DNA of 64,000 nt from Vallicoccus soli (GTDB lineage Bacteria > Actinomycetota > Actinomycetes > Motilibacterales > Motilibacteraceae): NCBI RefSeq assembly GCF_003594885.1, contig NZ_QZEZ01000004.1:1-64000 (forward strand). Direction: 5' to 3'. Below, in pieces: positions 674-55,744 of this stretch (positions are counted from its first letter, which is position 1; the number at the start of each line of letters is the position of its first letter). The position numbers were made by a program, and so were the translations under genes. The notes beneath the pieces are model-generated. The model had not been told where the DNA came from, did not search any database, and was given only the letters and a program-made list of their open reading frames with translations.

Positions 674-746
674 GGGCCTCTAGCTCAACCGGCAGAGCAG
701 CGGACTTTTAATCCGCGGGTTGTGGGTTCGATCCCCACGGGGCCCA
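674..746 (+). tRNA. tRNA-Lys (anticodon TTT), ICE integration target
   Basis: The cloverleaf folds completely. The acceptor stem is GGGCCTC with GGGGCCC (one T-G pair), the D-stem GCTC/GAGC, the anticodon stem GCGGA/TCCGC with loop CTTTTAA, and the T-arm GTGGG-TTCGATC-CCCAC. The anticodon is TTT at 707-709. CCA is not fully encoded (ACCCC follows). From the anticodon loop onward the gene is identical to the sequence at the far end of the ICE. Insertion therefore left a full functional tRNA here and a 3' fragment at the right end. Confidence 0.97.
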
Positions 747-2155
747 CCCCTGCTGACCTGCGGCGATGCCGTACGAGCGGTCGGATCGACCTTCATCTGG
801 GCCTCCTGAGGGCTGCTCTGATAACCGACTGCTAACGGGGCCGTGCTGGACGCACGACGGGGGACGAGCCCGGCGACCGCTTCCGCGGCCGCGTGGGCGA
901 CGGCCGGGAGCACACTCGTGTAGGTGTCGGCGGTGATCGACACGGAGCTGTGGCCGAGCTGCTCGCTGACGACCTTGAGCGGTACGCCGGCCTGCAGCGC
1001 GAGGCTCGCGGCCGTGTGCCGCAGGTCGTGTAGCCGGATCGGCGGCAGTTCGGCGCGTCGGACGATGCGCTGGAAGCTGTCGGTCACGAGGTCGGGGTGC
1101 ACCTGGGCGCCGTCCTCGCGCGTGAAGACGAGGCCGGTCTCTTGCCAGGCGGGGCCCCACGAATGGCGCTCGCGGTCCTGCTGGTGCCGCCACCGGCGCA
1201 AGGTGTCGGTGGTGAAGCTGTCCAGCGGCACCGTGCGTGACCCGCTGTCCGTCTTGGGCTCCCCGACCTGCGTCGCCCAGCCGAGCTGCACCACCTGCTG
1301 CGACACGCGCAGCGCCGCCGCCTCGAGGTCGATGTCCTGCCAGCGGAGGCCCACGGCTTCGCCGCGGCGCAGCCCGCGGAAGGCGACCAGGTGGAACAGG
1401 GGGTAGAGCCGCTCGTGCTGGGCTTCATCGAGGAACGCGCCGGCTTGCTCTGCGGTCCAGACCGCGACGGTCGGTCGCCAGCCGGTCCGCTGCCACTCCG
1501 CCACGCGGTCAGCTGTCCACACGACGGCTCGGGGACGTCGTCCGGACGCGAGCTCGACGTGTGCGGCCGGGTTGGCGACCAGCAGGCGGCGGCGGACAGC
1601 CGAGTTGAGGGCGGACATGAGCGTGGCGTGCACGCGGCGCACCCTGGCGTCACTCAGTGGCCGGGCGTGGTCCGGGTCAGTGCGAACCTCGAGGAGGCGC
1701 TGCAGTTCGAGGTCGTCGCGCTCGGGATCAGTGCCGAGCCGCCGCATCGCTGAGTAGAGGCGTTCGACGTGAGGGGCACGCAGGTCGAGGAGGCGCAGGT
1801 GGCCGAGGCCGGGCCGGAGGTAGAGGTGGACGTGCTCCGTGTACGAGCGTCGGGTCGAGGCGCGCAGGCTCCCCTTGCCGGCTAGCCATTGGTCGAGGTA
1901 GTCGCCGACGCGCATGCGCGACGGCTCGCTAGCGACTCCACCTTGCAGGTCCGCAAGCGCCCGGTTGAGCGCGGCTCGTGCCTCCCGTTCCGTGGCGAAC
2001 CCTCCTCGGACTCGCTGCCGGCGACGCCCGTCGGCCGCGCGAGGCAGGTCCAGGACGAAGTACCAGGACCCGTGACGCTTGCCGCAGTTGATGCGCCGGC
2101 CGGCAGCATCGCGCAGGGTGCCGCAGGGGCAGCGCTTGTGGGTGTGACCTCGCAC
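680..2155 (-). CDS. Site-specific tyrosine integrase
   Basis: A 491-residue tyrosine recombinase that would catalyse insertion into and excision from tRNA-Lys. A Cys-containing N-terminus (CPCG at 9-12) precedes an arm-binding segment, the SAM-like core-binding domain (about 82-195) and the catalytic domain. The full catalytic set is visible: R263 in GLRRGE, K301, H376xxR379 in LHDLRH, H402 in QLGHSS and the nucleophile Y412 in ADTYTS. The GTG start at 2155 lies 4 bp from the stop of the upstream excisionase gene, so the two are probably co-transcribed. The last 22 residues (470-491) are read antisense through the tRNA gene, and the stop codon lies in its acceptor/D-arm junction. The tail after residue 483 therefore depends on whether the element is integrated. 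Confidence 0.96.
   Translation of the reverse strand: MRGHTHKRCPCGTLRDAAGRRINCGKRHGSWYFVLDLPRAADGRRRQRVRGGFATEREARAALNRALADLQGGVASEPSRMRVGDYLDQWLAGKGSLRASTRRSYTEHVHLYLRPGLGHLRLLDLRAPHVERLYSAMRRLGTDPERDDLELQRLLEVRTDPDHARPLSDARVRRVHATLMSALNSAVRRRLLVANPAAHVELASGRRPRAVVWTADRVAEWQRTGWRPTVAVWTAEQAGAFLDEAQHERLYPLFHLVAFRGLRRGEAVGLRWQDIDLEAAALRVSQQVVQLGWATQVGEPKTDSGSRTVPLDSFTTDTLRRWRHQQDRERHSWGPAWQETGLVFTREDGAQVHPDLVTDSFQRIVRRAELPPIRLHDLRHTAASLALQAGVPLKVVSEQLGHSSVSITADTYTSVLPAVAHAAAEAVAGLVPRRASSTAPLAVGYQSSPQEAQMKVDPTARTASPQVSRGGPRGDRTHNPRIKSPLLCRLS
705..748 (+). repeat. attL direct repeat (44 bp, tRNA-Lys 3' part)
   Basis: The 44 bp from the first base of the anticodon loop to two bases past the discriminator recur without a mismatch at 55701-55744 in the same orientation. 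The base before (704 A versus 55700 C) and after (749 C versus 55745 G) differ, which fixes the ends. It lies inside the tRNA gene and beside the integrase gene, as expected of an attachment site. Confidence 0.95.
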
Positions 2156-8028: not shown

Positions 8029-8472
8029 TCAGCAATCGAACCTGTAGCTTGGGCATCTGTACCCGCAGCTGCTGCTGGTGGGGTGGTTGTGGCCCAGCGC
8101 GTCCGGTTCCGGGAACGTGAAGCTTGGGCATCCGTAGCCGCAGCTGCTGCTGGTGGGGTGGTTGTGGCCCAGCGCGCCCGATTCCCAACGAGCGAAGTTG
8201 GCGTAAGGGTCTTCGGCGACGTCGTGAGGGAAGCAAGGGTCGCCGCCGTGCCATCGGCCGCAGAAGCCGCAGTGCTGCAGATCGTCGACCGGTTCCGAAC
8301 GCCTCCAGCTCGAAGATGCCGCCGCCGTCCAATGGGCATTGCCGCAGGTTGGGCAGCGGCACGGCACGTCTGCGTCCGGGCCCCCGGCTCTCGAGGTGAA
8401 GTCGCCCATGCCCAACGATATGTCGGATGAGCTTGGACGCGCCAGGACCTGCTGTGACGAGTCACTAGCCAT
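8029..8472 (-). CDS. Cys/His-rich protein with 25-residue tandem repeat
   Basis: A leftward frame of 147 codons (an alternative ATG is at 8409). It holds CRCPTCGNAH, CGFCGRWHGGDPC and two copies of a 25-residue unit beginning ALGHNHPTSSSCGY and carrying CxxxC and HxH. The unit is duplicated at DNA level with a 75-bp period (8046 and 8121) and few changes. The paired Cys and His look like metal-binding knuckles. The opposite strand is also open but gives Ala/Arg-rich sequence, so this strand is preferred. Family unknown. Whether it is translated is uncertain because the ribosome site is weak. Confidence 0.5.
   Translation of the reverse strand: MASDSSQQVLARPSSSDISLGMGDFTSRAGGPDADVPCRCPTCGNAHWTAAASSSWRRSEPVDDLQHCGFCGRWHGGDPCFPHDVAEDPYANFARWESGALGHNHPTSSSCGYGCPSFTFPEPDALGHNHPTSSSCGYRCPSYRFDC
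8046..8195. repeat. 75-bp direct tandem duplication
   Basis: The segment beginning AGCTTGGGCATC at 8046 recurs at 8121. The first about 60 bp are almost identical (for example GCAGCTGCTGCTGGTGGGGT in both copies). The period is a multiple of three and duplicates 25 residues of the Cys/His-rich protein. Confidence 0.8.
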
Positions 8473-12500: not shown

Positions 12501-13344
12501 CCTCGACGGCCTGCCGGTCGGCGGCGATGACGAACACGCACCGGTCGGCGCCAAGGAAGGTGCGGACCGCGTCGAGCGTGCCGACGACATCGCTGGGAGC
12601 GCACCGGTCGAGCTCGTCGACGAAGACGACGATCCTGTCCTTACCCGCGTCCTTCACGAGCTCCTTGAACAGGTCCTCGAACTGCTCGCTGCTTTCGGCC
12701 TTGTCAGTCTTGTGCTCGACCCCAAGGGACTTGCCCGCGAGCACGATGAGCGCGGACAGCAGGGCGGCGGGAGTGAACGAGGCGACGACGACCTGCTTCA
12801 CGAGCGGTTGGAAATCCTCCCACCATCCGCCCTGCTGAAAGCCGGCGGCCGCTGCCGCGATGAGCAGAAGGCCGGTGAAGATCACGAACAGCAGCCCGAC
12901 GTAGATGCCCGCGAGCCGTAGGAGCGCCGTGCGCGGGACGTCGAAGGTGGTCGTGGTCGTCCCGGCGTACAGGTCGGCGTGGTACTTCGACTTCTCGACC
13001 TTGAGGTCGGTGGCGACGGCGCTGATGAAGTCGCGCCTGAGCGGGTTCTCGGCGTATTTGAAGGCGTCGAAGCGGGCGTAGCCGAGCTTCTTGTCGGCCT
13101 CCACGTACTGCCGGAGCAGGTTGCCGATGCCGCTCTTCCCGGACCCCCACGGGCCGTAAAGCGCGATGTTCGAACGTTCGGGAACGGTCGCCGCGAGCTG
13201 GGCGAGCTGCTGAGCGATCTGCTTGTGGCCGAGCTCGTCCGGCTGCGTGACGAGCGGGTCGCGCTTCTTGGTGTCGGCCGCGACCTCTCGGTCCGGGATG
13301 AGCTCGCCGGGCACGGCCAGCACGGGGGTGTCGGGCATGGTCAC
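9523..13344 (-). CDS. Giant KAP-family P-loop NTPase, membrane-inserted
   Basis: A 1273-residue protein. GTG start at 13344 with GGAGGAGG 7 nt upstream. The KAP NTPase domain spans about 30-440: Walker A GPWGSGKS at 64-71, and two transmembrane segments (about 142-168 and 184-207) inserted between Walker A and Walker B, as typical of KAP proteins. Walker B is IVVFVDELDRC at 238-248, and AADRQAVEEAL and SPRRVKSLLNAF follow as sensor-type regions. A very acidic linker (about 475-505) leads to about 700 residues of Ala/Leu-rich helical repeats resembling HEAT/ARM solenoids. The family includes PifA, the F-plasmid protein that excludes phage T7. A membrane-anchored conflict or exclusion ATPase is likely; the target is unknown. 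It stands as a single gene. Confidence 0.85.
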   Translation of the reverse strand: MTMPDTPVLAVPGELIPDREVAADTKKRDPLVTQPDELGHKQIAQQLAQLAATVPERSNIALYGPWGSGKSGIGNLLRQYVEADKKLGYARFDAFKYAENPLRRDFISAVATDLKVEKSKYHADLYAGTTTTTFDVPRTALLRLAGIYVGLLFVIFTGLLLIAAAAAGFQQGGWWEDFQPLVKQVVVASFTPAALLSALIVLAGKSLGVEHKTDKAESSEQFEDLFKELVKDAGKDRIVVFVDELDRCAPSDVVGTLDAVRTFLGADRCVFVIAADRQAVEEALNKELKQATPADPVNPYYSSGSAYLDKVFQYQILVPPLLQASITRYAVELVKDRPGVWKELGDRLDLTVSILVPSHVRSPRRVKSLLNAFVLTYRLAEARQKDGRLHGDMALRSDEIARMVCLRVEFPLFARDLVLDARLPEYVLRLHKGETEDQVWNDHPHATPQARAIARGFAHRELPVATLLSDEDRAERDDEDEQDDEHATGADAAGDDAPQDVSEQHGRQFLDYLSRTRSVPGPGRDLLFMQSTGSAVGLDGQLAERLEEDAENASIESLRTAVRALDEQGRGAAVTLLIGQSLGGVGLQAQNVALSLLALAAIPELDVASRADALADAIAAPLNDRPDLVAEGGLHGAWRLGLHSDRPTAGRLREIVLRYAAENADDPDIAMMVLGDSDAAIAVDPATTADILVAHLLAEDGDAAAATAKVLLAMQPHQAARLFDAAESRMASVLRGRLAPPEPPAARAATPGRPAPAPPASGGTNDEPGLDDPLKAALAALLDQLDGATGGPAQTLMRALLKSNRRALRELVESCVAGLAPVDDPALAALLISACSMRPLRAWQAWLAAVSPTAAATVETDDAVQRLVNQLWHYATSTESPAPSATARAAATAVVALLDQRTSAQRPGMDNVVRQSLGTPVEDDDTANERRRLLAAAEPLLLAGALDPSVLAAQETQDLASTLRADLTVAEFDDPVVQYVVSTVEDALRGFPRPGVPAGPAAADARADLVQALHDSSWLAEPHATRLRLLGRMLTETSDALPALPNADAINDLRGEHGHALDDTVAAWIALAEPDAAALLTATDIALQEVTPSDRLLSAISKAVARYPVKERIEVLHGLLDDPDRPAPTKDILRAAGTAGARLVPDIDVARILAARVDNNGTSNSTRRRHLMQAWENAGIESEPARKLLFEKLLIPLFATDDGPASNASIDLGIDYLPRLAKTQPSGTKDSLGKAVVAAIGEEKAGKVLRPLGYKVSESGAFLWRRTKVDTSD

Positions 13345-17731: not shown

Positions 17732-18915
17732 TGCCGTGCATCCCCACGATCCCGGCGACGTGCGCCGTCGCCGACGACCTCATCGGCGCTGCTGCGGGCG
17801 CCGCGGCCGGCGCCGCCGGTGACGCCGCCGCCGACACCCTCGGCAACTCCTTCGCCGACGCGATGCGCGAGGGCGCGGCGTGGGTCATCCGCACCACGAT
17901 CGGCTGGTGGATCGACGTCCCTGCCGTGGACCTCACCGAGACACCGGTCGACGACATCCGCGGCTACCTGTGGTGGCTGGCCCTCGCTGTCGCCGCCGCC
18001 GGGGTCGCCTGGCAGGGCCTGCGCATGGCGATCAGCCGCAAGCCCGACCCTCTCGTCGACATCGGCCGCGGCCTCGTGACGCTGGCCCTGTGGGCCGGCA
18101 TCGGCGTGGCCGGGCCGGCAGCCGCCCTGCGTGCCGGCGACGCCTTCTCGTCCTGGGTCCTCGAGGAGGCCTCGCGCGGCCAGGTCGCAGACCGGCTCGT
18201 CCGGCTCGCCGGGCTCGGCGGCGTCGACTCCGCCGGCGCCGTCATCCTCTTCGGGCTGGTCATGATGGTCGCCGGGATCGTGCAGGCCGTCATCATGGTC
18301 TTCCGCGAGGGCGCTGTGGTGATCCTCGCCGGCGTCGTGGTCCTGGCCGCGGCCGGCAACTTCACCGCCTACGGGCGTCCCTGGCTGATGAAGGTCCTCA
18401 CCTGGATGGTGGCCCTCATCGCCTACAAGCCGGTCGCCGCACTCGTCTACGCCACCGCGCTGACCCTCGCTGGCGAGGGTGAGGACCCGCGCACCGTCGT
18501 CGTCGGCCTCACGATGATGGCGCTGAGCATCGTCGCGCTCCCCGCTCTCATGAAGTTCTTCACCTGGGCGGGTGGCACCGCGAGCGGCATCGGCGGTGCG
18601 GCGGCCCTGGTCGGTATCACCGCGGCCGGGATCCAGACCGCGGCCGCCATCAAGGGCGGCATGGTCGGGGGCGCTGCGGGCGCCCAAGCCGCGCAGCTGC
18701 GGCAGGACCTCGGCCCCGCTGCGGGCCCCGCAGGCTCCACAGGCGCTGGCCCGAGCGGTGCCGGTGGCTACTCCGGCCCGGCCATGGTCGTCGCGGCCCC
18801 TCCCGCTGCTTCAGCCACTACCGCGGCAAGCAGCGGCCCGGAGTCAGCGTCCGCTCGCACCGCCGCCGCCAGTCGTGGTGCCGCTCGTTCGACCGAGAAG
18901 GGGCACCAGCAGTGA
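17731..18915 (+). CDS. VirB6/TrbL-like polytopic T4SS channel protein
   Basis: A 394-residue protein. The ATG at 17731 overlaps the previous stop (TGATG), which decides the start over an upstream frame extension. An Ala/Gly N-terminus is followed by WVIRTTIGWWIDVPAVDL and six or more transmembrane helices (about residues 75-310). It ends in an Ala/Gly/Ser/Pro-rich hydrophilic tail. This is the SCO6881-type arrangement of actinobacterial VirB6 homologues. It would form the inner-membrane channel with the SCO6880 and VirB4-like products. Its stop overlaps the next start (18912-18915). Confidence 0.8.
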   Translation: MPCIPTIPATCAVADDLIGAAAGAAAGAAGDAAADTLGNSFADAMREGAAWVIRTTIGWWIDVPAVDLTETPVDDIRGYLWWLALAVAAAGVAWQGLRMAISRKPDPLVDIGRGLVTLALWAGIGVAGPAAALRAGDAFSSWVLEEASRGQVADRLVRLAGLGGVDSAGAVILFGLVMMVAGIVQAVIMVFREGAVVILAGVVVLAAAGNFTAYGRPWLMKVLTWMVALIAYKPVAALVYATALTLAGEGEDPRTVVVGLTMMALSIVALPALMKFFTWAGGTASGIGGAAALVGITAAGIQTAAAIKGGMVGGAAGAQAAQLRQDLGPAAGPAGSTGAGPSGAGGYSGPAMVVAAPPAASATTAASSGPESASARTAAASRGAARSTEKGHQQ

Positions 18916-20411
18916 GCGCGAGCAGCCTGCAGTCCTCGATCCCCGTGCGCACGTACGGCGGCTGGCGCCGCACCCGCGGCATCGGCCTCTTCGGCCTCGG
19001 CGCCGGCACCAGCGTCGTCGTCATGGGATGCGTCGTCGTGCCGCTCATCGCCGTCGGCTTCTCCCTGTCCGCCGGACTCGCGACCGCCGCACCAGCGCTC
19101 GTCGTCGCGGGCCTCACCCTCGCGCGCTGGGACGGCGTCCCCCTCGCGCACGTCGTCCAACGCCGCCTGCACTGGTGGTGGGCATCCGCACGCGGCTGGA
19201 CCACGCTGCGCGCCAGCACCGTCGTCGACCACTCGGGCGCCTGGACACTACCAGGCCCGCTCGCCGCGACCCGCCTCCTCGAGGTCGAGGACGGACGCGG
19301 CGGCACCTTCGGCGTCGTGCACGACCAGCGGGCGGGCCACCTGACGGCGACGCTGCGGTGCGCCGCGACGTCCACGTGGCTCGTCGACGGCTCCGACGCC
19401 GACGGATGGGTGTCGAACTGGCACGCCTGGCTCGCCTCCCGCGGGTTCGACCCACTCGTCGCTTGGGTCGGCGTCACCGTCGAGACCGCTCCCGAGCCCG
19501 GCTCCACCCTCGTCGGAAACGTGCACCGCCGCCTCGAGCCCAGCGCGCCGCCCGACGTGCGCCGGCTCATGGACGAGCTGGTCTCCCGCTCCCCGGCGGC
19601 CGCCGCCGACGTCGACACCCGCGTCTCGGTGACCTTTGACCCGGCCCGTGCCGCTGAGCGGCTGCCCGACCTCGCCGACCAGGCCGCCGAGGTGTCCCGC
19701 GCCCTCAACGGCATGGAGTCCGCCCTCGGCGAGTGCGGCGTCTCGGTCCTCGGCCGCGCCAGGGCCCACGAGCTCGCCGGCGTCCTGCGCACCGCCTACG
19801 ACCCGCGCAGCCGCGGCGAGGTGAACCGCATCGTCGAGGACACCGCCGACCCGCAGACCCTGCTGCAGTGGACCGAGGCCGGCCCGGTGGCCGCCGACGA
19901 GGGCTGGGACACCTACCGGCACGACTCCGGGCTGTCGGTGTCCTGGGCCTGGCACGAGGCGCCGCGCCAGCAGGTCACCTCCGACGTCATGACCCGACTG
20001 CTCGCACCGGGACGACACCCGAAGCGGGTCACGATGCTCTACCGGCCGCTGCCCGCCGGTCAGGCCGCGCGACTGCTCGAGGACCAGGTCAACGCCGCCG
20101 CGTTCCGCGAGGCGTACCGGCGCACCCAGGGCCGCGACGCCACCGCCCGGGACCAAGCCGACCGCGACCAGGCCGTCGCCGCGGCCCGTGAGGAGGCGAT
20201 GGGCGCCGGGGTCGTCCTCATGAGCCTGTACGTCACCGTCACGGTCACCGACCCCGACGAGCTTCCCGCCGCGGTCGCCGACGTCGAGGCCCGCGCCGAC
20301 CAGTCCAAGATCCGGCTGCGCCGCCTGTACGGCTCGCAGGCCGCCGGCTTCGCCGCCACCCTCCCGGCCGGCGTGCACCCCCAGCACCTCGCCGACCGCG
20401 GCCTCCGCTGA
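18912..20411 (+). CDS. SCO6880-family T4SS protein
   Basis: A 499-residue protein. The N-terminal segment SIPVRTYGGWRRTRGIGLFGLGAG, followed by two adjacent transmembrane helices (about 30-75), is diagnostic of SCO6880 proteins. The rest is the soluble VirB4 N-terminal-like domain with no P-loop. In these systems the ATPase half is a separate gene, which follows here 16 bp downstream. Together the two make the equivalent of one VirB4/TraE. The start overlaps the previous stop by four bases. Confidence 0.85.
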   Translation: MSASSLQSSIPVRTYGGWRRTRGIGLFGLGAGTSVVVMGCVVVPLIAVGFSLSAGLATAAPALVVAGLTLARWDGVPLAHVVQRRLHWWWASARGWTTLRASTVVDHSGAWTLPGPLAATRLLEVEDGRGGTFGVVHDQRAGHLTATLRCAATSTWLVDGSDADGWVSNWHAWLASRGFDPLVAWVGVTVETAPEPGSTLVGNVHRRLEPSAPPDVRRLMDELVSRSPAAAADVDTRVSVTFDPARAAERLPDLADQAAEVSRALNGMESALGECGVSVLGRARAHELAGVLRTAYDPRSRGEVNRIVEDTADPQTLLQWTEAGPVAADEGWDTYRHDSGLSVSWAWHEAPRQQVTSDVMTRLLAPGRHPKRVTMLYRPLPAGQAARLLEDQVNAAAFREAYRRTQGRDATARDQADRDQAVAAAREEAMGAGVVLMSLYVTVTVTDPDELPAAVADVEARADQSKIRLRRLYGSQAAGFAATLPAGVHPQHLADRGLR

Positions 20412-20427
20412 TCTCCGGGAGCCACTC

Positions 20428-21873
20428 ATGCGTACCCGCACACCGCTCATCGCCCCACCTTGGGGCTGGCGCCGCGCTGGTGGCGGCCGGCTCGCCCACG
20501 TCTCCCGCGCCCCCGAGTACCAGGCCACCACGGTGCAGGCCTGCGGGCTCTACCCGTTCGTCGCCGGCTCCGGCTCACCGTCGGTCGGGGTGCCGTTCGG
20601 TCGGCACATGATGTGGGGCGAGGTCGTGTGCCTCGACCCCTTCGCCTGGCTCGACACCGGTCTGGTCACCAACCGCGGTCTGACGCTGCTCGGGCAGCCC
20701 GGCACCGGCAAGAGCTCCGCGCTGAAGCGGCTGTCGCGCGGGCTCATGGCGTACGGGGTGGTGCCGCTGTTCCTCGGCGACCTCAAGCCCGACTACTCCT
20801 CGGTAGTCCGCAGCGCGGGCGGGCAGGTCATCCGGGTCGGGCGTGGCTTGGACCGGCTGAACCCGCTGGACTCCGGGCCGCTCGGGCGCGCCCTCGCCCG
20901 GACGAGCGGGCAGAGCGCGCAGCGCCTGCGCGCGGAGGTCCGCGGCCGACGGCTGTCCGCGACCCTCGCGCTGTGCACGCTGGTGCGCCGGAACAGCCCG
21001 ATGAGCAACGGCGAGGAGATCGTCCTCGGCGCCGCGGTGGACCTGCTCGCGGACCGGCTGCCGGCGGTGCAGGACCCGACGATCCCCGACGTGCTCGCCC
21101 TGGTCCGCGAGGCGCCGGACCGGCTGCGGGCCGCGGCCGAGGTGGAGACGCTCGCGGAGTACCGGGCCGAGACCAAGCCGCTGCGCCAGACCCTCGGCCT
21201 GCTGTGCGAGGGCTCGCTCAAGGGCGTGTTCGACGGACCGACGTCGCGGCCCATCGACCTCGACGCCCCCGCGGTGAGCGTGGACATCAGCCAGGTCGCC
21301 GCCTCCGGGGACACCCTGGTGGCCGCGGCGATGCTCTCGACCTGGTCGTACGGCTTCGCCATGATCGACGCCTCCGCCGCCCTCGCCGAAGCGGGACTCG
21401 CCCCGCGCCGGCGGTACTTCGCGGTAATGGACGAGCTGTGGCGGGCGCTGCGCGGCGCCCCCGGACTCGTCGACCACGCCGACGCCCTTACCCGCGTCTA
21501 CCGCGGCAAGGACGTCGCGCACGCCATGGCCACCCACGGCATGCAGGACCTCGACGCCCTGCCCAGCGAGGAGGACCGGGCTAAGGCCCGAGGCTTCGTC
21601 GAGCGCAACGCCATCACCGTGCTCGCCGGGCTACCGCCGCGCGAGCTCGACGACGTCACCCGCGTCGTCCCGCTGTCCGCTCAGGAGAAGCGCATGGTCG
21701 CCTCCTGGTCCGCCCCGGAGTCCTGGCAGCCAGGCGCCCGCCACCCCGGCCGCGGGAAGTACCTCATCAAGACCGGTCAGCGCGTGGGCATCCCCGTCGA
21801 GCTTGAGTACGTCGCCGACGAGGCCCACCTCTACAACACCGACGCGCCACGGCCCGTCGGGGACGTCTCGTGA
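20428..21873 (+). CDS. VirB4-like T4SS ATPase
   Basis: A 481-residue ATPase with Walker A GQPGTGKSS at 89-97 and Walker B YFAVMDELW near residue 330. Conserved intervening blocks such as LFLGDLKPDYSSVVRSAGGQVIRVG and LNPLD are typical of VirB4/TraE-type motors. The mostly cytoplasmic protein would energise assembly and substrate movement. It follows SCO6880, which supplies the missing N-terminal part. Its stop overlaps the start of the coupling protein (ATGA). Confidence 0.9.
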   Translation: MRTRTPLIAPPWGWRRAGGGRLAHVSRAPEYQATTVQACGLYPFVAGSGSPSVGVPFGRHMMWGEVVCLDPFAWLDTGLVTNRGLTLLGQPGTGKSSALKRLSRGLMAYGVVPLFLGDLKPDYSSVVRSAGGQVIRVGRGLDRLNPLDSGPLGRALARTSGQSAQRLRAEVRGRRLSATLALCTLVRRNSPMSNGEEIVLGAAVDLLADRLPAVQDPTIPDVLALVREAPDRLRAAAEVETLAEYRAETKPLRQTLGLLCEGSLKGVFDGPTSRPIDLDAPAVSVDISQVAASGDTLVAAAMLSTWSYGFAMIDASAALAEAGLAPRRRYFAVMDELWRALRGAPGLVDHADALTRVYRGKDVAHAMATHGMQDLDALPSEEDRAKARGFVERNAITVLAGLPPRELDDVTRVVPLSAQEKRMVASWSAPESWQPGARHPGRGKYLIKTGQRVGIPVELEYVADEAHLYNTDAPRPVGDVS

Positions 21874-23675
21874 CCCGGCCGCTGGAGCCCCGCGTCGGGA
21901 TGCTCCCGCCGGGCACCGGCCTGCCGTTCACGCTACTCGGGCTCGCCTGGGGCGGCGTCGGGCTGCTCGGGCTCCTGTACGGCGCCGGGGCGACAGCGTC
22001 TTGGCTCACCGGCCACGGCTGGCACGTCCCGCCCCTCCGGGCCGCGGCTGTCGACCGGTTGCTCGAGGGCGGTCCGGCGACGCTGTGGCCGCAGGTCCCG
22101 GTCGGCCTGGTCTGGTCGCTCGCGGCGATCGCCGTGCTCGCCGTGGGTGCTCCCGTCCTCGTCGCCGCGGCGCGCCTGCAACGGGGTCAGCGCGAGCGGA
22201 GCCTCGAGCGCTCGCTCAGCGGCGGCGGACGGCTCGTCGCGATGACGCCTCATGGTGTCGCCGAGCGCGCCCCTCGGCTGCGCGTTTCTCTGCAGGCCAC
22301 GCCCGTCCGGCGCATTGCCCCACGGGACGCGGGGGTGCCGCTGGGCCGGCTCGGGCGTCGTGGCCCGGAGCTGCGTGCCTCCTGGGAGGACGTCCAGCTG
22401 GCGGTGATGGCCCCGCGCGCGGGCAAGACAACCTCCCTCGCGGTCCCGGCGGTGCTCGACGCCCCGGGCGCGGTAGTGGCGACGAGCAACAAGGCCGACC
22501 TCTGGGCCGCCACCGCCGCGCTGCGCGCGCAGGACACCGACGAGCCCGTGTGGGTCTTCGATCCACAGGGCATCGCCGCGACGCCCCGGACGTGGTGGTG
22601 GAACCCGCTGCGCGGGCTCGACACCGTCGAGGAGGCGTCCCGCCTCGCCGGGCACTTCATCCAGGAGGTCCGGGGAGACAAGAACGGCCGCGACTTCTGG
22701 ACCTCCGCTGCACACGATCTGCTCACCGGCCTGCTCCTGGCCGCCGCGGCGGGACGACGCCCGCTCGACGAGGTGTACGAGTGGCTCAACGACCCCGTCA
22801 TCCCCACGCCGGCGATGCTGCTGCGCGAGGCCGGCCACCCGGCCGCCGCCGCCTCCCTCGCCGGGCGGCAGAACGGCGCTCCGGAGACTCGCGACGGCAT
22901 CTACGAGACCGCCCGGACCGCCGCGCAGTGCCTCCGCGACCCGCGGATCATGGCCTGGGTCAGCCCAGACCAGGCCGCGCGCGTCCGTCTCGACGAGTTC
23001 GACACCGCGCGTTTCGCGTCCTCGCGGCAGACGCTCTACCTGCTGAGCAAGGACGGCGCCGGCGCAGCAGCTCCGCTGGTCGCTGCCCTCACGGACCGCG
23101 TCATGCGCGACGCCGTGCGCGTCGCCGAACGCCGCGGGGGCCGCCTCGACCCCCCGATGGTCGTCGTCCTCGATGAGGCCGCGAACGTCTGCCGGATCAG
23201 CGACCTGCCCGACTTGTACTCCCACCTCGGCAGCCGCGGCGTCGTCCCCCTGACCATCCTGCAGTCCTACCGCCAAGGCGTACGGATCTGGGGCGAGCCC
23301 GGTATGGACGCACTGTGGTCCGCAGCCACTGTCAAGCTGATCGGGGCCGGCATAGACGACGCCAAGCTCGCCGAGGATCTTTCCCGCCTCGTCGGCGAGC
23401 ACGACGTCTCCGTGCGCTCCTACTCCTACGGCTCGCGCCAGCGTAGCGACACCACAAGCCTTAGGCGCGAGCGCATCCTGCCCGCGGACAAAGTGCGCGC
23501 TCTGCCGCGTGGCACCGCACTGCTGCTCGCTACTGGCAACCCTCCCGCTCTGCTGCGCCTCACGCCCCACTACGCCAGCACTCGAGCGGACGCTGTCGCG
23601 ACAGCCGTACGAGCCGCCGACGGGCTCTTGGCCGAGCGGATGAGCCAGCTCCCGAACAACAGGCAGGAGCCATGA
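21870..23675 (+). CDS. VirD4/TraG-type coupling protein
   Basis: A 601-residue membrane ATPase. Two N-terminal transmembrane helices (about 18-45 and 78-102) anchor a TraG/VirD4 motor domain. Walker A is APRAGKTTS near 181-189, then SNKADLWAATAALR and VWVFDPQGIA. The helical all-alpha region includes RDFWTSAAHDLLTGLLLAAA, and Walker B is MVVVLDEAANVC near 430. A TraM-recognition-type region lies near ILQSYRQGVRIWGEPG. It would receive the relaxase-bound strand and feed it to the T4SS. A degraded fragment of a second such protein lies near the relaxase at 51.2 kb. Confidence 0.92.
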   Translation: MTRPLEPRVGMLPPGTGLPFTLLGLAWGGVGLLGLLYGAGATASWLTGHGWHVPPLRAAAVDRLLEGGPATLWPQVPVGLVWSLAAIAVLAVGAPVLVAAARLQRGQRERSLERSLSGGGRLVAMTPHGVAERAPRLRVSLQATPVRRIAPRDAGVPLGRLGRRGPELRASWEDVQLAVMAPRAGKTTSLAVPAVLDAPGAVVATSNKADLWAATAALRAQDTDEPVWVFDPQGIAATPRTWWWNPLRGLDTVEEASRLAGHFIQEVRGDKNGRDFWTSAAHDLLTGLLLAAAAGRRPLDEVYEWLNDPVIPTPAMLLREAGHPAAAASLAGRQNGAPETRDGIYETARTAAQCLRDPRIMAWVSPDQAARVRLDEFDTARFASSRQTLYLLSKDGAGAAAPLVAALTDRVMRDAVRVAERRGGRLDPPMVVVLDEAANVCRISDLPDLYSHLGSRGVVPLTILQSYRQGVRIWGEPGMDALWSAATVKLIGAGIDDAKLAEDLSRLVGEHDVSVRSYSYGSRQRSDTTSLRRERILPADKVRALPRGTALLLATGNPPALLRLTPHYASTRADAVATAVRAADGLLAERMSQLPNNRQEP

Positions 23676-30281: not shown

Positions 30282-30601
30282 ATGAGATTGCCGATGCGGC
30301 TAGCTGCGACGACTCGCTGCAGGAAACTGACGTCCATCCTGTTGGCCCTTGTCGTCGTCGCGGGCATGGCCGCCGCGGTAAGCACTGAGCGGACTGCCCA
30401 GGCCACGGAGGCCCCTGGGGGAGGGATACTTTCCTCAAATGCACCCGTTAGGGTGTTTGACTCACGCGCGAACGGACCGGCGCTTGGAGCGGGGCAAGCC
30501 GTGCCTGCGCGATTCGCCGGAATGCAGGGCATTCCTGCGGATGCTTCCGTAGTGCTATCGTAAGCCCGTCGGCTAATGCGAGTATTCACCTGTACCCTTG
30601 A
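30282..30601 (+). pseudogene. Truncated, frameshifted secreted protein
   Basis: ATG 30282 opens a signal-peptide protein (LTSILLALVVVAGMAAAVS). It runs into NAPVRVFDSRANGPALGAGQ and RFAGMQGIPADASVVL, the repeat type seen in many actinobacterial exported proteins (VxDSR..GxLGAGQ...G.P.DAxxVVLN). The frame stops at 30563, but the continuation VSPSANASIHLYP is present in another frame from 30560 to 30598 before a second stop. A small deletion at VVL(N) is therefore the cause. The rest of the gene is missing. The local base composition is also lower in GC. Confidence 0.7.
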
Positions 30602-30895: not shown

Positions 30896-31062
30896 TCCGG
30901 GCGGGGTACTGGTTGCGTTTCGGGTCCCTGGCCGGCCAAGCGAGGCAGGGCGCGTTGGAGCGCTGCAAGTGCTTAGGCAGTTGCCGACTCGCAGTTGCAG
31001 CGTCTTGAGTGAGTCTCCTCACCGCCGGGCTCAAAGTTCCGCGCAGCCACTTTGTCAGCAGG
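30896..31062 (+). repeat. Diverged direct repeat, copy A
   Basis: About 165 bp that align with 50516-50684 in the same orientation at roughly 70% identity by eye, from GGGCGGGGTACTGG to GTCAGCAGG. Both encode the same protein end on the plus strand (WPA..GRA..., then SQLQ-L/R-LE and stop). Copy A has an internal stop and a frame change, so it is a dead gene fragment. Confidence 0.65.
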
Positions 31063-47195: not shown

Positions 47196-47668
47196 CCCTG
47201 CGCTGATGGCATAGCACGACGACAACGAGCCGGGCCGACGCGCTGCGGGGTCGCTCAGGAGTTGGACGCGCTGCGGCGGCTGTACTAGGTCGACGTGCCC
47301 GGAAGTTCGGGGTGGCACTGCTCGCTGAGCCTGCGCGTCGCTGAGCCTGCGCGTCGCTGAGTCTGCGCGGCGGAGGAGGGCTAGCTCAGCGACAAGCAGT
47401 GGCCGCGATCGCGGGCGACGCGGACGACTTCGTCGACGGCATGAGCGTCGCCGGTGACGCTGTTGACGCCGGGTGGGGCACGTCGGGGGAGGGGAGGCAC
47501 CCGTACCGGTCGGTCGCCGTGCGCCACGGGCTGAGCTCCGCGCGCTTCGCCCGCGCGTGGTGTGCCCGGCGCCGCGGCTCTCCAGCACCTGAAGCATCGG
47601 CGGTCGCGCGGCTGCGCCTTGAACAACGCCAACATGGAGGTCGTCGTGGCTGCGGAGGAGGCGAACAT
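47196..47668. other. 473-bp gap with a 16-bp triple repeat
   Basis: No gene is seen. Three copies of GCTGAGCCTGCGCGTC lie at 47324-47370 (the third is shortened and has one change). The end of this stretch carries the GGAGGAGG ribosome site of the next gene. Confidence 0.4.
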
Positions 47669-48553
47669 GTGAGTGCGGACTACCCCGACCTGCCGATCGA
47701 AGGCCGCGACCAGTGGCGCTCATGGCTGGCAGGGCACGGCACCGTCGCCCGCGGCGTGTGGGTGGTGACGTGGAAGAAGGGCTCAGGCGAGCCCCATGTC
47801 TCGTATGGCGACCTCGTTGAAGAAGCGCTTGCTGCTGGGTGGGTGGACTCGCGCCCCCGCGCCGTCGACGACCGGCGCTCCGCGCTGCTTGTCACCCCGC
47901 GCAAGCCCACGAGTCGATGATCCCGAGCCAATAAGCAGCGCATCGAGCGCTTGCTCGCCGCCGGCCTCATGCAGCCTCCCGGACTCGCAGTTGTCGAGGC
48001 CGCCAGAGCCTCCGGCACCTGGAACGCCCTCGACGACGTCGAGGACCTGCGCGAGCCCTCCGACCTGGCCGGCGCACTCGATGCCCAGCCTGCGGCCCGC
48101 GCCCACTGGGACGCCTTCCCCCGCTCCACCCGGCGAGGCATCCTCGAGTGGATCCTCACCGCGAAGACCGACGCGACCCGACTTCGCCGCATCGAGCAGA
48201 CCAGGCGTCGCGCCCTGACGGCCGTCAAGCGGGACCCTGGTGGGGCGCTCCCGCCCGAGCCCGCATCCGAGTGGAACGCGTCACGAGACGCTAACCGGGC
48301 TCGCGGAACCGGACACCCGATCGTTCCTCGACTTGGTGGCAGCGCTACTGCCGTAATTGACCGAGAACCCCTTGCGCCCGCCCCTTCGCTGGGGCGAGGA
48401 CCTGCGGCCTACCTGTCGGACCTCAACGGCGCCCCGTCGGCGAGAAGGCGCTCCTGCACGCGGCCGACCCGAACCGCCCCTCATCGCCCGCATCCGCCAT
48501 GCCATTTTCTGGCGCTAGTCCCTGAACCCCCTTTAGTAGCGGTCACGGCTTGA
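47669..48553 (+). pseudogene. YdeI/OmpD-associated-family protein with an in-frame TGA
   Basis: GTG 47669 has GGAGGAGG 9 nt upstream. The N-terminal half (DYPDLPIEGRDQWRSWL, GVWVVTWKKGSGEPHVSYGD, LVEEALAAGWVDSRPRAVDD, LLVTPRKPTSR) ends at TGA 47918. Without any frame change the next codons give SRANKQRIERLLAAG, then PPGLAVVEAARASGTWNALD and RSTRRGILEWILTAKTDATR, the exact continuation of the family. The TGA stands where the family has Trp (KPxSxWSRxNK), so one G-to-A change (TGG to TGA) broke the gene. The far C-terminus after about 48230 is not family-like. Confidence 0.8.
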
Positions 48554-48584: not shown

Positions 48585-49103
48585 TCACGCCCCGTGTCGC
48601 CACCAATCGAGCTCGTAGGTCTCCCGCGGCCGCATGGGAGCAATACGTATGCTGAGTTCTGCAATCTCTCCAGCCAGAACTAGCACGTCTCCCTCCTCTA
48701 CGCGAGTAGCGGTCAATTTGCTCTTGTTCGGAGAGAGGCCTACCCAGGCTTGTGCCAGTACCTCTTGGCGCGCAGGCATGCGGTGCGCCCGGACCTGCTG
48801 CTGAGCGAGCCCGGTCGCTGCGTAGTGCTGTCTCACGCGCTCACGATAGATGCTCGCGAGGACCTCCGGTGGACCCGCCATCCCCCTCCGGGCAGTCATT
48901 ATCAGAACTAGGGAAGCGTCTGCGATTTCTCCTTGCTCCAAGGTCAAGCTCCTCATGCGCCGCCCCCGCCAACGCGCTTCGAGTAGGGTCGGCACTCCGT
49001 ACCTCGAGAACGGAGTCAGTGCAAGAGGAGGGATCCCGGCCGAGCGCAGCACCTCTTGAGGCAATCGCGGCTTCCAACCATCTGCGTCTCTGAGTGACTC
49101 CAC
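48585..49103 (-). CDS. Probable immunity protein of the Rhs toxin
   Basis: A 172-residue soluble protein from GTG 49103, starting 14 bp after the Rhs stop on the same strand. This is the place of the cognate immunity gene in every polymorphic-toxin cassette. It shows no recognised family: PRLPQEVLRSAGIPPLALTP, then VPTLLEARWRGRRMRSLTL, VGLSPNKSKLTATRVEEGDV and ELSIRIAPMRPRETYELDWW. It has visibly lower GC than surrounding genes, like the toxin tip, which supports joint acquisition. The immunity function is inferred from position only. Confidence 0.6.
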   Translation of the reverse strand: MESLRDADGWKPRLPQEVLRSAGIPPLALTPFSRYGVPTLLEARWRGRRMRSLTLEQGEIADASLVLIMTARRGMAGPPEVLASIYRERVRQHYAATGLAQQQVRAHRMPARQEVLAQAWVGLSPNKSKLTATRVEEGDVLVLAGEIAELSIRIAPMRPRETYELDWWRHGA

Positions 49104-49117
49104 GTCTTAGCTTACCC

Positions 49118-50623
49118 CTACTGAGCCAGGTCCAGGTGCAGGGGCCTGGAGATAGAGACCCCGAAGCCGATGGCAGTGGCAGTAACGATCACATAGACGG
49201 GCCCAAAGGTGTCCGCCTCGAAGTCGTACGAGTCATATATCTCGTACGTTCCAAAGAGAGATTCTCCACTGTCGATTTCGGCGTGGTAGTCGCCAGAGGC
49301 GATGACGAGGTAACTGAAGCTCCACGCGAACACCCTGAAGTCTGAGACTATTCCCACAATGACTTCGCACACACCAAAGTCGCAGGTCAAGCTCGCCGAG
49401 AAAGTTCCAGCGTCACCTCCAGAAGTGGCAGAGGCTTTGCCAGCGATGCGGCCACTCGGGTCGACAAGAGTGGTCGGCTTGTTGTTCACGTATACGTAGC
49501 GGCCAACATATGGGTCCGCAACCTGCGCTGGGTGCGGGTCGGTTTGGGTGAAGCGGCCGAGGTGGGTGTCGTATTGGCGGGCGCGGAGGTGGTAGGTGTC
49601 GGTGAAGGTGTCGTAGTACTCGCCGGTGTAGCGCAGGGGGTTGGTGGGGGCGCCGGCGGTCTGGGTGCTGCGGCGTAGGTCGCCGTAGGCCTCGTAGTTG
49701 TACTGGGCTTGGACGGTGCCGGTGGCGTTGGTGAGGGCGGTGACGGAGCCGAGGCCGTCGTAGTGGTAGTAGAAGGTGCCGGCGCCGGTGGTCATGGCGA
49801 TGGTGTCCAGGCCTTGGGTGTAGCGGCGCTGGAGTGCGTTGCTGCCGTTGGTTTCGCGGGCGAGCTGGGGCAGCGGGTTGTTGAGGTCCCACTGGTACTT
49901 GGTGGTGTTGGCCGCGGCGGGTGCGGTGGTGCCGGTGCTGGTGGCGGCGGTGAGGCGGTTGCCGTCGCCGTCGTAGGTGTACCGCTGGGTGCTGCCGTTG
50001 GTGGCGCCGCCGGTGCTGGTGGCGGCGGTGAGCTTGTTGGCGTCGTTGTAGGCGTAGGTCATGCCGCACTGGCGGGTCAGGTTGCCGTTGTCGTCGTACT
50101 CGTAGTTGGCGCAGGGCCCGGAGGGGCCGTCCTTGGCGGTGAGCTGGTCGGCGGCGTTGTAGGTGTAGGTGGTGACCTCGTTGACGCCGCCGACGGGACG
50201 TTCCTTGGTGGTGCGGTTGCCGTTCTTGTCGTACCGGTACTTGAAGTAGGTGTCGGTGGTGGCGCCGCTGGTGTCGCAGGAGGTGGTGTAACAGGCCTGC
50301 AGCAGCATGTTCCACACGTTGTACTGGTAGGTGACGACCTCGTCCTGGCGGGTGATGCGGGTGGGGTTGCCGTTGGGGTCGTAGTCGTAGGCGGCGCTGG
50401 ACAGCACGGTGGTGCCGCGCTTGTTGGTGAGGGTCTTGAGCTTGCCGGCGTTGTCGTAGGTGCGGGTCTCGGCGTGCCCGTTGCCAGTGGGCAGGGTGGT
50501 CGTCTTGAGCAGCCCGTCAGGGCGGGGTACTGGGTGACGTATGCGGGCCCATGGCCAGCGAGCGAGGCGGGGCGCGCTGCGGCGGCGCAGGTGCGTCGTC
50601 AGTTCGACGGCTCGCAACTGCAA
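49118..50623 (-). CDS. Orphan Rhs/YD-repeat protein with novel C-terminal toxin tip, 5' truncated
   Basis: From about 50517 to 49440 the frame codes YD/Rhs repeats (RTYDNAGKLKTLTNKRGTTV, YKYDKNGNRT-type units, YEYDDNGNLTRQCG). It ends with the Rhs core RYTGEYYDTFTDTYHLRARQ, YDTHLGRFTQTDP, YVYVNNKPTTLVDPSGR. The first about 35 codons (from 50623) are not Rhs-like and come from the repeated fragment on the other strand. The large N-terminal part of a real Rhs protein is therefore missing. After DPSGR comes a tip of about 105 residues (TFSASLTCDFGVCEVIVGIV ... SISRPLHLDLAQ), beta-rich, lower in GC and without a known nuclease motif. An immunity-type gene follows. Confidence 0.8.
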   Translation of the reverse strand: MQLRAVELTTHLRRRSAPRLARWPWARIRHPVPRPDGLLKTTTLPTGNGHAETRTYDNAGKLKTLTNKRGTTVLSSAAYDYDPNGNPTRITRQDEVVTYQYNVWNMLLQACYTTSCDTSGATTDTYFKYRYDKNGNRTTKERPVGGVNEVTTYTYNAADQLTAKDGPSGPCANYEYDDNGNLTRQCGMTYAYNDANKLTAATSTGGATNGSTQRYTYDGDGNRLTAATSTGTTAPAAANTTKYQWDLNNPLPQLARETNGSNALQRRYTQGLDTIAMTTGAGTFYYHYDGLGSVTALTNATGTVQAQYNYEAYGDLRRSTQTAGAPTNPLRYTGEYYDTFTDTYHLRARQYDTHLGRFTQTDPHPAQVADPYVGRYVYVNNKPTTLVDPSGRIAGKASATSGGDAGTFSASLTCDFGVCEVIVGIVSDFRVFAWSFSYLVIASGDYHAEIDSGESLFGTYEIYDSYDFEADTFGPVYVIVTATAIGFGVSISRPLHLDLAQ

Positions 50624-50684
50624 CTTCTCGAGTGAGCTCCGTGCCGCTGAGCGCCGAAGTCCCGCGCAACCACTTGCCAGCAGG
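50516..50684 (+). repeat. Diverged direct repeat, copy B
   Basis: Matches 30896-31062 in the same orientation. Here the plus-strand frame is intact over RAGYWVTYAGPWPASEAGRA, then QVRRQFDGSQLQLLE and stop. It is the end of a protein whose front has been replaced by the antisense Rhs cassette. The junction is at about 50515-50520. Confidence 0.65.
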
Positions 50685-51156: not shown

Positions 51157-51310
51157 CTACCGGGTCAACCACAGGTACACCTGGGTCAGGTCCCGCCCGG
51201 CCAGGGCCGCGGGCGAGCAGCATGTCGCCGAGCAGCTGCTCGCCGCGCGGGTCGAAGTAGGCGTCGGTCCGCGCACCCGGGTCGCGCGCCGAGGTCGAGA
51301 ACCGCGCCTC
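51157..51310 (-). pseudogene. Fragment of a second coupling protein (VirD4/TraG-like)
   Basis: Leftward fragment: EARFSTSARDPGARTDAYFD, PRGEQLLGDMLLA in one frame, then ALAGRDLTQVYLWLTR and stop in another. It can be matched to RDFWTSAAHDLLTGLLLAAA, GRRPLDEVYEWL of the intact TraG-like protein at 21.9 kb, yet is clearly a different lineage. Only this helical segment of the ATPase survives. Confidence 0.5.
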
Positions 51311-51401
51311 CCGCGATTGAGAGCGGGCGTTGGTTGGACGCGGGATCGGGGTGTCGGGGGCGCAGCTGTGGGCTTGACGCACGTGTTCTGCTGGCTCGCC
51401 G

Positions 51402-52826
51402 TCATCGTCGTTGGGGCGACCGCCCCAGGTTCACCCGATCGTGCTGGCTCTTGGCGTGCCTGCTCGCAGGACCCTGGCCGTCGGTTGCAGAGGCCGGCGC
51501 AGTGGGCGGCGGCCCGACGACGGCACGGCCCAGTTGTTTGTGTCCGTCAGGCGCCAGGTGTCGTCTGACGATCGGAAGGAGGGTCGCCCAGAGGGCTGCG
51601 GCTGAGGGCTCCATGCCCCGTTCGTGGTGCGTCAGCGCGTTGCTGAACGCTTGGAGGGCCCGAGCGTCGGCCGTGGACCTCGTGTCTGGGTCGGGCCTCG
51701 CGCCCCGGAAGTGGAGGTTGTCGACGGCGTCGGTCAGAAGGCCGCCCCGAGTTCCTTCCACAGCACGAGCGAGAAGTTGCAGCAGGTCGTGCAGGGCTGC
51801 CAGGCCGTCCGGCTCGCGGAGCATGAAGGAGTGATGGTGCAGCTCTCGCTCAAGCCGGCGCAGCTGAGCGAAGAGCGCGACGGGCAGCTTGACGGACTGG
51901 CCCCGGCCAGCCGGTACGTGGACGTCCTCGCGCCGCGCGACAGCGTCCGCCGTGCGAGGGTTCGGGCCACGCCTGGCCCATCGTCGTTCGAGCCGCGGTA
52001 GGGCGAGGTCGGGGGCGAGTTTGCTGCCGCCGAACCACACCGGCTGCCCGCGGTCGTCGTGGTCGCCGGGCCAGGCGACGGCGTACCCGGTGCGCAGTGC
52101 GGGGTGCTGTCTGCTGTGGCGTTCGCGGATGAGCAGGCCTTGGTTGCGGAGCCGGTCCAGGAAGTCTTCGGTGCTGGTGGCGCCAGCGGCGGCGATGCGG
52201 ACCTCTCGGCGCAGGGTGAGGCGGGGTGCCTCGCGTCGGGCGTGCCGGGCGGCCTTCTCGGTCTCGGCGCGGGTGGGCCGGCGCGGTGCGGTGCGATCGC
52301 GGGGTGCTGTGCGGACGAGGTGGTAGCGGTCCTCGAGGTCGCGGCACGCTCGCCCGACGCGGTAGTAGTCGTTGGACGGTCGGGCCGGGCGCCCGTCCTC
52401 GCGGGCGAGGGTGACCACCAGGTGGATGTGGTCCTCGGCGTGTCGTACGGCGACCCATCGGCACCCAATGATGTCCTCGGGTGAGGCGCCGGCGGCGGGG
52501 GGCACGAGACCGGTCCGGTCGAGGACTTCGCGGGCGACCGCGCCCCACTGCCCGTCGGACAGTCGGGGGTCGGTCGGTGCGACGCGCAGGGCGCAGTGCC
52601 AGACGGGGTTTGCCGGCGGGCGAGGGCAGGCCTGCAGCGGCTGCTCGAGCAGGTTAGCGAGCCGGCGGACGTCGTGCCGACCCTCACGTACGGCGGGCTC
52701 GAGCAGTTGCGGGTCGTCCCAGGCGCCGACGAGGTGCGGGTCGGTGTGCTCGTTAGCGCGCCCGGGGCCGTAGAGGTAGCGGAGCAGCCCGGCGACGTCG
52801 CTGCCACGGACGATCTTGCCGATCAT
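51402..52826 (-). CDS. MOB relaxase (MobA/VirD2-type)
   Basis: A 474-residue relaxase that would nick at oriT and pilot the strand. N-terminal motif I is GSDVAGLLRYLYGPGRANEH, with Tyr17 or Tyr19 as the nucleophile candidates. The histidine metal triad is AVRHAEDHIHLVVTLA (H129, H133, H135). A long basic C-terminal region follows with no helicase. The N-terminus SDVAGLLRYLYGPGRxxEHxDP is characteristic of actinobacterial relaxases. Its start overlaps the stop of the DUF2637 gene (52823-52826), so the block Rep-like, small ORF, MobC, DUF2637, relaxase is one leftward operon. Confidence 0.93.
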   Translation of the reverse strand: MIGKIVRGSDVAGLLRYLYGPGRANEHTDPHLVGAWDDPQLLEPAVREGRHDVRRLANLLEQPLQACPRPPANPVWHCALRVAPTDPRLSDGQWGAVAREVLDRTGLVPPAAGASPEDIIGCRWVAVRHAEDHIHLVVTLAREDGRPARPSNDYYRVGRACRDLEDRYHLVRTAPRDRTAPRRPTRAETEKAARHARREAPRLTLRREVRIAAAGATSTEDFLDRLRNQGLLIRERHSRQHPALRTGYAVAWPGDHDDRGQPVWFGGSKLAPDLALPRLERRWARRGPNPRTADAVARREDVHVPAGRGQSVKLPVALFAQLRRLERELHHHSFMLREPDGLAALHDLLQLLARAVEGTRGGLLTDAVDNLHFRGARPDPDTRSTADARALQAFSNALTHHERGMEPSAAALWATLLPIVRRHLAPDGHKQLGRAVVGPPPTAPASATDGQGPASRHAKSQHDRVNLGRSPQRR

Positions 52827-53755
52827 GCCGCGGACGAAGTTCCCCGCTCGAGGCTGGCGAGCTGCCCCTGGGCCTGACTGCGCACGCGCTGGGCGGTCCG
52901 TACCGACAACTCATGCCCGCGGCCGCGCAGGTGCTCGGCCAGGGCGACAGCGGTCAGGTGGGGGGCGTGCTGCAGCAGCGCGACAGCATCGGCCACTCGA
53001 TCAGGGTGCCGCTCCGGCCGTCGGCGGCCTCGCTCCTGAGCCTGCGGTGTGACGGCCGCTGGCTCCGGCAGGTCCGCGGGTTCGATCCCCTTGAGACCGT
53101 GGGTGGGCAAGGCCGCAGGAGGACTCGAGGCGGCGTGGTCGGCGGAGGGTGCAGCAACGTGGCTCGGATCAAGCGCTGCGAGGGCTTCCTGCCGCCAGGC
53201 AAGCCACGTCCTGAGCGGTGCGAGGAACCAGAGCACCGGGTGGCGGCGGGGCAGCGCAGGCTTCACGGAATGCGGGGCATGGGTGAGTCGGGCGTCCCTC
53301 CGGGCGTCGCTCACCGCGGACTCGAGGCAGACGACGAACATTGCCGGGGGTACGGCGTGCACGAGCACTCCGACCAGCCCGCGCGCTGCCGCGGCGTTGG
53401 CCAGGACCGACGCGGTGGAAAGGGTCAGGACCAGCGCACGCAGACCTGTAGCGCTCCGACCTTTGCGTGCTGCCATGGCGACCTTGAGGCTGAGCACGAC
53501 GATCCCGAGGTCGAACGAGAGCGGCACGGCGGGGGCAAGCCAGGGAGAGAACCCGCCGACGGACAGGGCCAGGTCGCGCAGCGTCTCGTAGCTGGCGGCG
53601 AAGCCGATGACCGCCAGCAGACCCAAACCCCCGGCCACGACGCCACGCGTGATGCTGTCGCCAACCCGGCTCGGGCTGTGCGGACTGCCGAGACGGTCGC
53701 GGCGCTCGCAGATGTGCTGGCTGTTGGGAGCGGGCTCGGGCTGTGCGACGGTCAC
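52823..53755 (-). CDS. DUF2637 (Spd-like) membrane protein
   Basis: A 310-residue protein. Residues about 35-145 form four hydrophobic helices in the DUF2637 pattern (GGLGLLAVIGFAASYETLRD, GFSPWLAPAVPLSFDLGIVV, STASVLANAAAARGLVGVLV, VPPAMFVVCLESAVSD). Streptomyces plasmid spread proteins belong to this group. The C-terminal half is cytosolic and carries a recombinase-like or wHTH-like end (LTAVALAEHLRGRGHELSVR). It overlaps MobC upstream and the relaxase downstream by four bases each. The likely role is spread or a membrane anchor for the relaxosome. Confidence 0.85.
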   Translation of the reverse strand: MTVAQPEPAPNSQHICERRDRLGSPHSPSRVGDSITRGVVAGGLGLLAVIGFAASYETLRDLALSVGGFSPWLAPAVPLSFDLGIVVLSLKVAMAARKGRSATGLRALVLTLSTASVLANAAAARGLVGVLVHAVPPAMFVVCLESAVSDARRDARLTHAPHSVKPALPRRHPVLWFLAPLRTWLAWRQEALAALDPSHVAAPSADHAASSPPAALPTHGLKGIEPADLPEPAAVTPQAQERGRRRPERHPDRVADAVALLQHAPHLTAVALAEHLRGRGHELSVRTAQRVRSQAQGQLASLERGTSSAA

Positions 53756-54237
53756 GAAGCCTCCCGCTCCTGCGCCCCGCTCTGGCTGTCCGGCGGAGCC
53801 TGTGCCCCTCGTCGCGGCTGCGGACGACGACGTTCGGCGCGGCTGGCGTCGGCCACGACGCCGGCGGCCGCCTCAAGCCTGCTGACCGCCTGGCTCGTGA
53901 GACGCACCGCTTGCGGCAGCCACTCGGGCGCCTGACCGAGGCTGTTCAGTTCGCGCACCGCCTGGTTGACGTTGGTCCCGAACTTGCGCACCTGAGTGCG
54001 CGCCGCCATGAGCTCCACGAGGGCCTCGCGGAGCGGCAGCGTCGACGGCGCGTGGACGCCTCGGGCGGCGGCGAGGGCTGCCTCGGCGACGTAGCCGGTG
54101 AGGGTCAGACCCGCGGCGCGCGCGGCCTCGGCGAGCAGGGCGTACTCGTCGTTCGAGAAGCGTGAGAACACCGAGCGCTCACGTCGCGGCTGGCGGTGGT
54201 CTCGGTCCCGCCCCGGTCCGCGGTTCCCGCGGTTCAC
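53752..54237 (-). CDS. MobC-type relaxosome accessory protein
   Basis: A 161-residue protein. A ribbon-helix-helix-like region (RSVFSRFSNDEYALLAEAAR, AAGLTLTGYVAEAAL) is followed by the MobC signature VRKFGTNVNQAVRELNSLGQ. A Pro/Arg/Gln-rich tail closes it. It would bind oriT and help the relaxase. The GTG start overlaps the stop of the small upstream gene (GTGA), and its stop overlaps the DUF2637 start. oriT should therefore be in or just upstream of this block. Confidence 0.88.
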   Translation of the reverse strand: MNRGNRGPGRDRDHRQPRRERSVFSRFSNDEYALLAEAARAAGLTLTGYVAEAALAAARGVHAPSTLPLREALVELMAARTQVRKFGTNVNQAVRELNSLGQAPEWLPQAVRLTSQAVSRLEAAAGVVADASRAERRRPQPRRGAQAPPDSQSGAQEREAS

Positions 54238-55534: not shown

Positions 55535-55700
55535 GCCGGGCCACCCCCGAGAACGGGGGCGACTGCAAACCGACTGCTAACGGAGCCGCGAGGACGACGA
55601 CGCCAGCGCTGGTACGAGGTGGGACGGGTGGAGCGTGCAGCAGGCTCGGAAAGCGCACAGCCGAGCCTACGCGTCACCGTCCGGCACGGGGGGCTGCGCC

Positions 55701-55744
55701 CTTTTAATCCGCGGGTTGTGGGTTCGATCCCCACGGGGCCCACC
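55701..55744 (+). repeat. attR direct repeat (44 bp)
   Basis: Identical to 705-748. Upstream sequence does not form a tRNA 5' half, so this is only the 3' piece of tRNA-Lys displaced by integration. The host gene on the right (Lrp family) ends 15 bp beyond. Confidence 0.95.

Follow-up and report, generated by a model that had tools for sequence, protein, structure and literature searches.

In the orphan rhs-CT/rhsI modules described so far, signals for initiation and export are usually missing from the tip fragment, and the immunity gene is apparently expressible (PMC3150448, PMC3967940). In Salmonella, an orphan tip that recombined with the main rhs gene was thereby redeployed (PMC3967940), and such tips also work intracellularly from internal promoters (PMC7043789). 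In Bacteroidales, orphan immunity genes on mobile elements shield their carriers (PMC10470768, PMC12247911). Here we analyse a fragment of an Rhs gene and the open reading frame (ORF) next to it in the actinobacterium Vallicoccus soli. The window, that is, the whole stretch of DNA analysed, is positions 1 to 64,000 of contig NZ_QZEZ01000004.1, and both ORFs lie on its minus strand between 48585 and 50623. With moderate confidence, we regard them as a 5′-truncated rhs-CT/putative rhsI module on an integrative and conjugative element (ICE) at a tRNA-Lys gene; its tip is probably not made or delivered, and the neighbouring gene most likely protects the host.

Rhs core fragment, tip and neighbouring gene

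The longer ORF (49118-50623, minus strand) encodes 501 residues, with the tail of an Rhs core (about 355 residues, with YD repeats) followed by a tip. GC3 is the GC content at the third codon position and LLR the log-likelihood ratio.

49451..50521, minus strand: Rhs/YD-repeat core fragment, ORF residues 35-391 (TIGR03696, PF05593, relative in genome G014, GC3 0.94)
49121..49450, minus strand: Rhs C-terminal tip, 110 amino acids (aa), candidate toxin domain (GC3 0.68, no homologue found in the collections listed below)
48585..49103, minus strand: 172-aa ORF, candidate immunity gene (14 bp past the Rhs stop, GTG start, GC3 0.66)
49531..49585, minus strand: composition breakpoint at core residues 347-365, probable tip-swap joint (GC3 change-point, 2-LLR support interval)
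50513..50524, no strand assigned: joint that truncates the rhs fragment on its 5′ side (start of Rhs homology at residue 35-39; direct repeat from 50517)
50517..50684, plus strand: degenerate 168-bp direct repeat abutting the joint (76% identity to the copy at 30896-31062)

The RHS-associated core model TIGR03696 matched residues 310-391 (E 2.3e-18), and YD repeats were found upstream of it (RHS_repeat, PF05593, E 1.1e-15). The core ends in PTTLVDPSGR, which satisfies PxxxxDPxG, with R replacing the L of the border described for Rhs proteins, PxxxxDPxGL (PMC3150448). The best Rhs relative, from genome G014, was 47-51% identical to the core fragment and lies inside a 2240-aa open frame.

An initial annotation, made from the letters of the window, had reported a retained Rhs core with a DPSGR border, a tip without a known toxin motif and a 172-residue gene 14 bp downstream. 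All three were borne out; the tip matched no Pfam or NCBIfam model, and the downstream ORF is on the same strand. The tip had been described as about 105 beta-rich residues of lower GC. It is 110 aa long, its GC is indeed lower, and it is all-beta by a weak prediction; it is also acidic (net charge -10). Both ORFs scored as coding. The 172-aa ORF had the top coding score of the six frames (z 3.4), and a random sequence of matched composition would contain no stop in 0.4% of cases (P 0.004). A GGGG that overlaps the Rhs stop codon, ahead of the GTG start, could be its ribosome-binding site.

The structure prediction proposed in the initial annotation did yield AlphaFold2 models, but without homologues to align they were poor and uninformative (pLDDT, the model confidence score, 32 and, for the tip, 43). 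A fold search with the tip model, itself unreliable, returned nothing at E ≤ 0.001.

Composition break inside the conserved core

GC by codon position was 0.54/0.47/0.68 in the tip as compared with 0.55/0.52/0.94 in the core. The change does not coincide with the DPSG border. GC3 was 0.96 over the greater part of the core but fell to 0.69 across the final 32 core codons, and it was similarly low in the tip (0.68) and the 172-aa ORF (0.66). The change-point in GC3 had an LLR of 33, as against a maximum of 8.3 in 500 permutations. Because the low-GC stretch starts about 30 codons ahead of the border, the foreign segment begins inside the conserved core (DTHLGRFTQTDP). The GC3 drop common to the tip and its neighbour is real and marks an imported segment. 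A single crossover within the conserved core, which we infer, would leave such a break.

For comparison, we used a control set of 41 Rhs C-terminal ends, nearly all actinobacterial, 40 from Rhs genes of the same class and one from a Streptomyces plasmid. Mean GC3 in these genes was 0.90 in the core and 0.74 in the tip. In 22 of the 41, the Rhs stop was followed within 30 nt by the start of an ORF of 85 aa or more, as compared with 36% of random positions (p 0.016), and no close downstream ORF followed the tip in 8. The downstream ORFs had a mean GC3 of 0.67, and seven of them overlapped the Rhs stop by four bases. The window locus thus resembles an ordinary actinobacterial Rhs 3′ end in GC3 pattern and layout. 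Its tip and its neighbour resembled nothing in the 41 sampled loci; for the tip, no similarity was seen at E < 1. Many of the sampled actinobacterial Rhs proteins (those at eight loci) have short Gly/Ala-rich hydrophobic tips of 48-87 aa, which look membrane-active and not enzymatic.

Searches for homologues

The tip and the 172-aa protein had no match in Pfam, NCBIfam, PDB sequences, 72,556 plasmids, 50,697 phages, viral contigs or the sampled genomes of the class; for the 172-aa protein, this also held for PADLOC and 188 genomes of the phylum. The 172-aa protein fell into no known immunity family. Both had appeared to be new families in the initial annotation, which here means no match in the collections searched. 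It is common in Rhs-type systems for the tip and its neighbour to be of unknown type. The search of the taxonomic order to which the closest Rhs relative belongs covered only three genomes. Neither the tip nor the whole Rhs fragment, when scanned against genome contigs, led to a confirmed relative; because the whole-fragment scan returned no Rhs at all, this type of scan is insensitive to distant relatives.

Several weak matches were rejected. Those of the tip in Streptomyces-type genomes (E about 0.002) ran over long frames beside transporter-like genes, not Rhs genes. The 172-aa protein had weak matches down to E 6e-4; these were short, GC-rich and scattered, and were taken as chance. A suspected kinship with the Cys-containing tip of one Streptomyces-type Rhs gene (L093) had no family support.

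Loss of the 5′ part

The closest Rhs relatives, with open frames of 1451-2282 aa, aligned with the fragment only from residue 35-39 onward. Therefore, the joint at about 50517 is real, and the fragment is without most of the protein, including any secretion part. The N-terminal delivery part, the start and the secretion signals were not present in it. The initial annotation had placed a fusion to an antisense gene fragment at this joint. The antisense fragment could not be confirmed; what lies there is the degenerate repeat. The repeat has only two copies in the genome, one of which ends exactly at the joint, and about seven single-base gaps between them imply that no common reading frame was kept.

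The 4.04-Mb draft genome (98.6% complete) yielded no second Rhs gene, and with it no full-length rhs parent for the module. With no such parent found, the displaced cassette of the initial annotation is no more than a possibility, and decay of a once full-length gene fits just as well.

The ICE and its other genes

The Rhs fragment sits on an ICE, as had been claimed. The element is genuine and complete, spans about 55 kb and is inserted at tRNA-Lys; the att repeats, integrase, VirB4-like, VirD4 and relaxase genes were all present.

697..748, plus strand: attL, 3′ end of tRNA-Lys(ttt) at 674-748
55693..55744, plus strand: attR, copy of the tRNA-Lys 3′ end (94% over 52 bp, 44 bp perfect)
680..2155, minus strand: tyrosine integrase of the ICE (PF00589, E 4e-24)
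18912..23675, plus strand: type IV secretion system (T4SS) genes, namely SCO6880 family, VirB4-like (weak match, E 2e-9) and VirD4/TraG (PF02534)
51402..54237, minus strand: relaxase (MobP-type, PF03432), DUF2637 and NikA-like genes

GC3 rises to about 0.97 right of attR, which indicates host DNA there. An Rfam scan detected the tRNA only.

A frameshift near 47.9 kb breaks a YdeI/OmdA-like gene (47399-48553) into two reading frames, so that it is a pseudogene or reflects a sequencing error. A fragment of a VirD4/TraG-type gene (51160-51290) was 92% identical in DNA sequence to a longer copy on contig 14 (positions 51318-51447 there), which suggests a second related element in the genome. A 1273-aa KAP-family ATPase (9523-13344) had partial similarity to QatA, the Qat anti-phage ATPase (E 1e-31, under the curated cut-off), and may be a defence gene aboard the ICE. 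Elsewhere, the truncated N-terminal part of an apparent secreted protein gene (30283-30563) ends with a stop in a gene-poor stretch, and a 73-bp unit is tandemly duplicated at 8038-8185 with 92% identity.

Proposed history and competing explanations

An ancestral Rhs gene would have acquired the foreign tip and its neighbour through one crossover close to GRFTQTDP, some 30 codons short of DPSG. The N-terminal secretion and shell parts would have been deleted afterwards, by a rearrangement at about 50517. The candidate toxin is probably silent at present because it has no parent, secretion signal or clear start. The neighbour would still be translatable and most likely shields the host of the ICE from relatives with an intact toxin. 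The core of about 1.07 kb could allow the module to recombine into an intact Rhs gene. By analogy with the described orphan modules, the module most likely serves at present as carried immunity, and its tip would stay silent until it recombined onto an intact core. The locus has a core, an imported tip and a composition-matched neighbour, which the initial annotation took for the standard layout of a polymorphic-toxin cassette; the toxin and immunity functions, like the crossover and the present use, are what we infer from layout and composition.

The main rival of carried immunity is plain decay, in which the two ORFs that remain have no function today, whatever they did in the past, and are carried as passengers. 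In favour of decay, the Rhs fragment is surrounded by broken genes (the frameshifted YdeI/OmdA-like gene and the VirD4 fragment), the repeat at its joint is degenerate and no second Rhs gene was found in the genome. A scan with the sigma-70 consensus, which covers actinobacteria poorly, found no promoter-like site. The broken surroundings and the negative promoter scan also weigh against carried immunity. So does the result that no homologue of the tip or the neighbour was found on an intact Rhs gene in the collections searched, so the pairing has been seen once. Against decay, the 357-codon core, the tip and the neighbour are all stop-free, and GC3 of the core is 0.94; either the loss is recent or something maintains them. 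We consider decay an unlikely explanation that still has to be taken seriously. The layout by itself is little proof, since about 25% of random positions in this GC-rich window have the start of an ORF of 172 aa or more within 30 nt. This chance adjacency, the missing toxin family or motif and the 8 sampled Rhs genes without a close downstream ORF would agree with a YD-repeat protein whose C-terminus has a structural or surface role and is followed by an unrelated ICE gene. The foreign composition that the tip and the neighbour share after a sharp break, and the enrichment of a like layout among the sampled Rhs genes, argue against this explanation and make it improbable.

A toxin-antitoxin (addiction) pair that works within the cell, is expressed from promoters in the core fragment and thereby keeps the ICE stable would suit a mobile element. 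This explanation seems more improbable still, in view of the negative promoter scan and no evidence of expression. In a bolder reading, the tip would belong to a new all-beta family of toxins and the neighbour to a new immunity family. The ICE would then be a vehicle that carries the pair and the flanking core homology between actinobacteria, and arms and protects recipients by recombination into their rhs genes. We think this rather unlikely. If the pair is real, it provides a candidate toxin and immunity family for a system of a well-known kind, an example of a parentless rhs-CT module carried on an actinobacterial T4SS ICE, and a place to test the conjugative spread of immunity or replacement tips. 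If there is only decay, the locus is an ordinary genomic remnant.

Comparison with known systems

The closest described counterparts are the orphan rhs-CT/rhsI modules of Enterobacteriaceae and their relatives (Dickeya, Yersinia and STM0292 of Salmonella). They share with this locus a partial core, the PxxxxDPxG border, an unrelated tip and a small ORF directly downstream, with no clear initiation signal. Theirs lie downstream of a full-length rhs gene, which was not found in this genome. The cited modules adjoin their parents in Proteobacteria, whereas the present one is on a T4SS ICE in an actinobacterial host, with a candidate toxin and immunity gene proposed from sequence.

The RHS-type polymorphic toxins of actinobacteria (Zhang et al. 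2012, PMC3482391) likewise have RHS repeats, a variable tip and an immunity-like gene on the 3′ side. The present locus differs in the absence of the N-terminal trafficking part, and neither Pfam nor NCBIfam has a model that fits its tip or its neighbour. With the acquired interbacterial defence loci (AID and rAID; PMC10470768, PMC12247911), it has in common that a mobile element possibly carries an immunity gene while no toxin can be delivered. Those loci are arrays of immunity genes without toxin tips, whereas here a single gene is still beside its tip.
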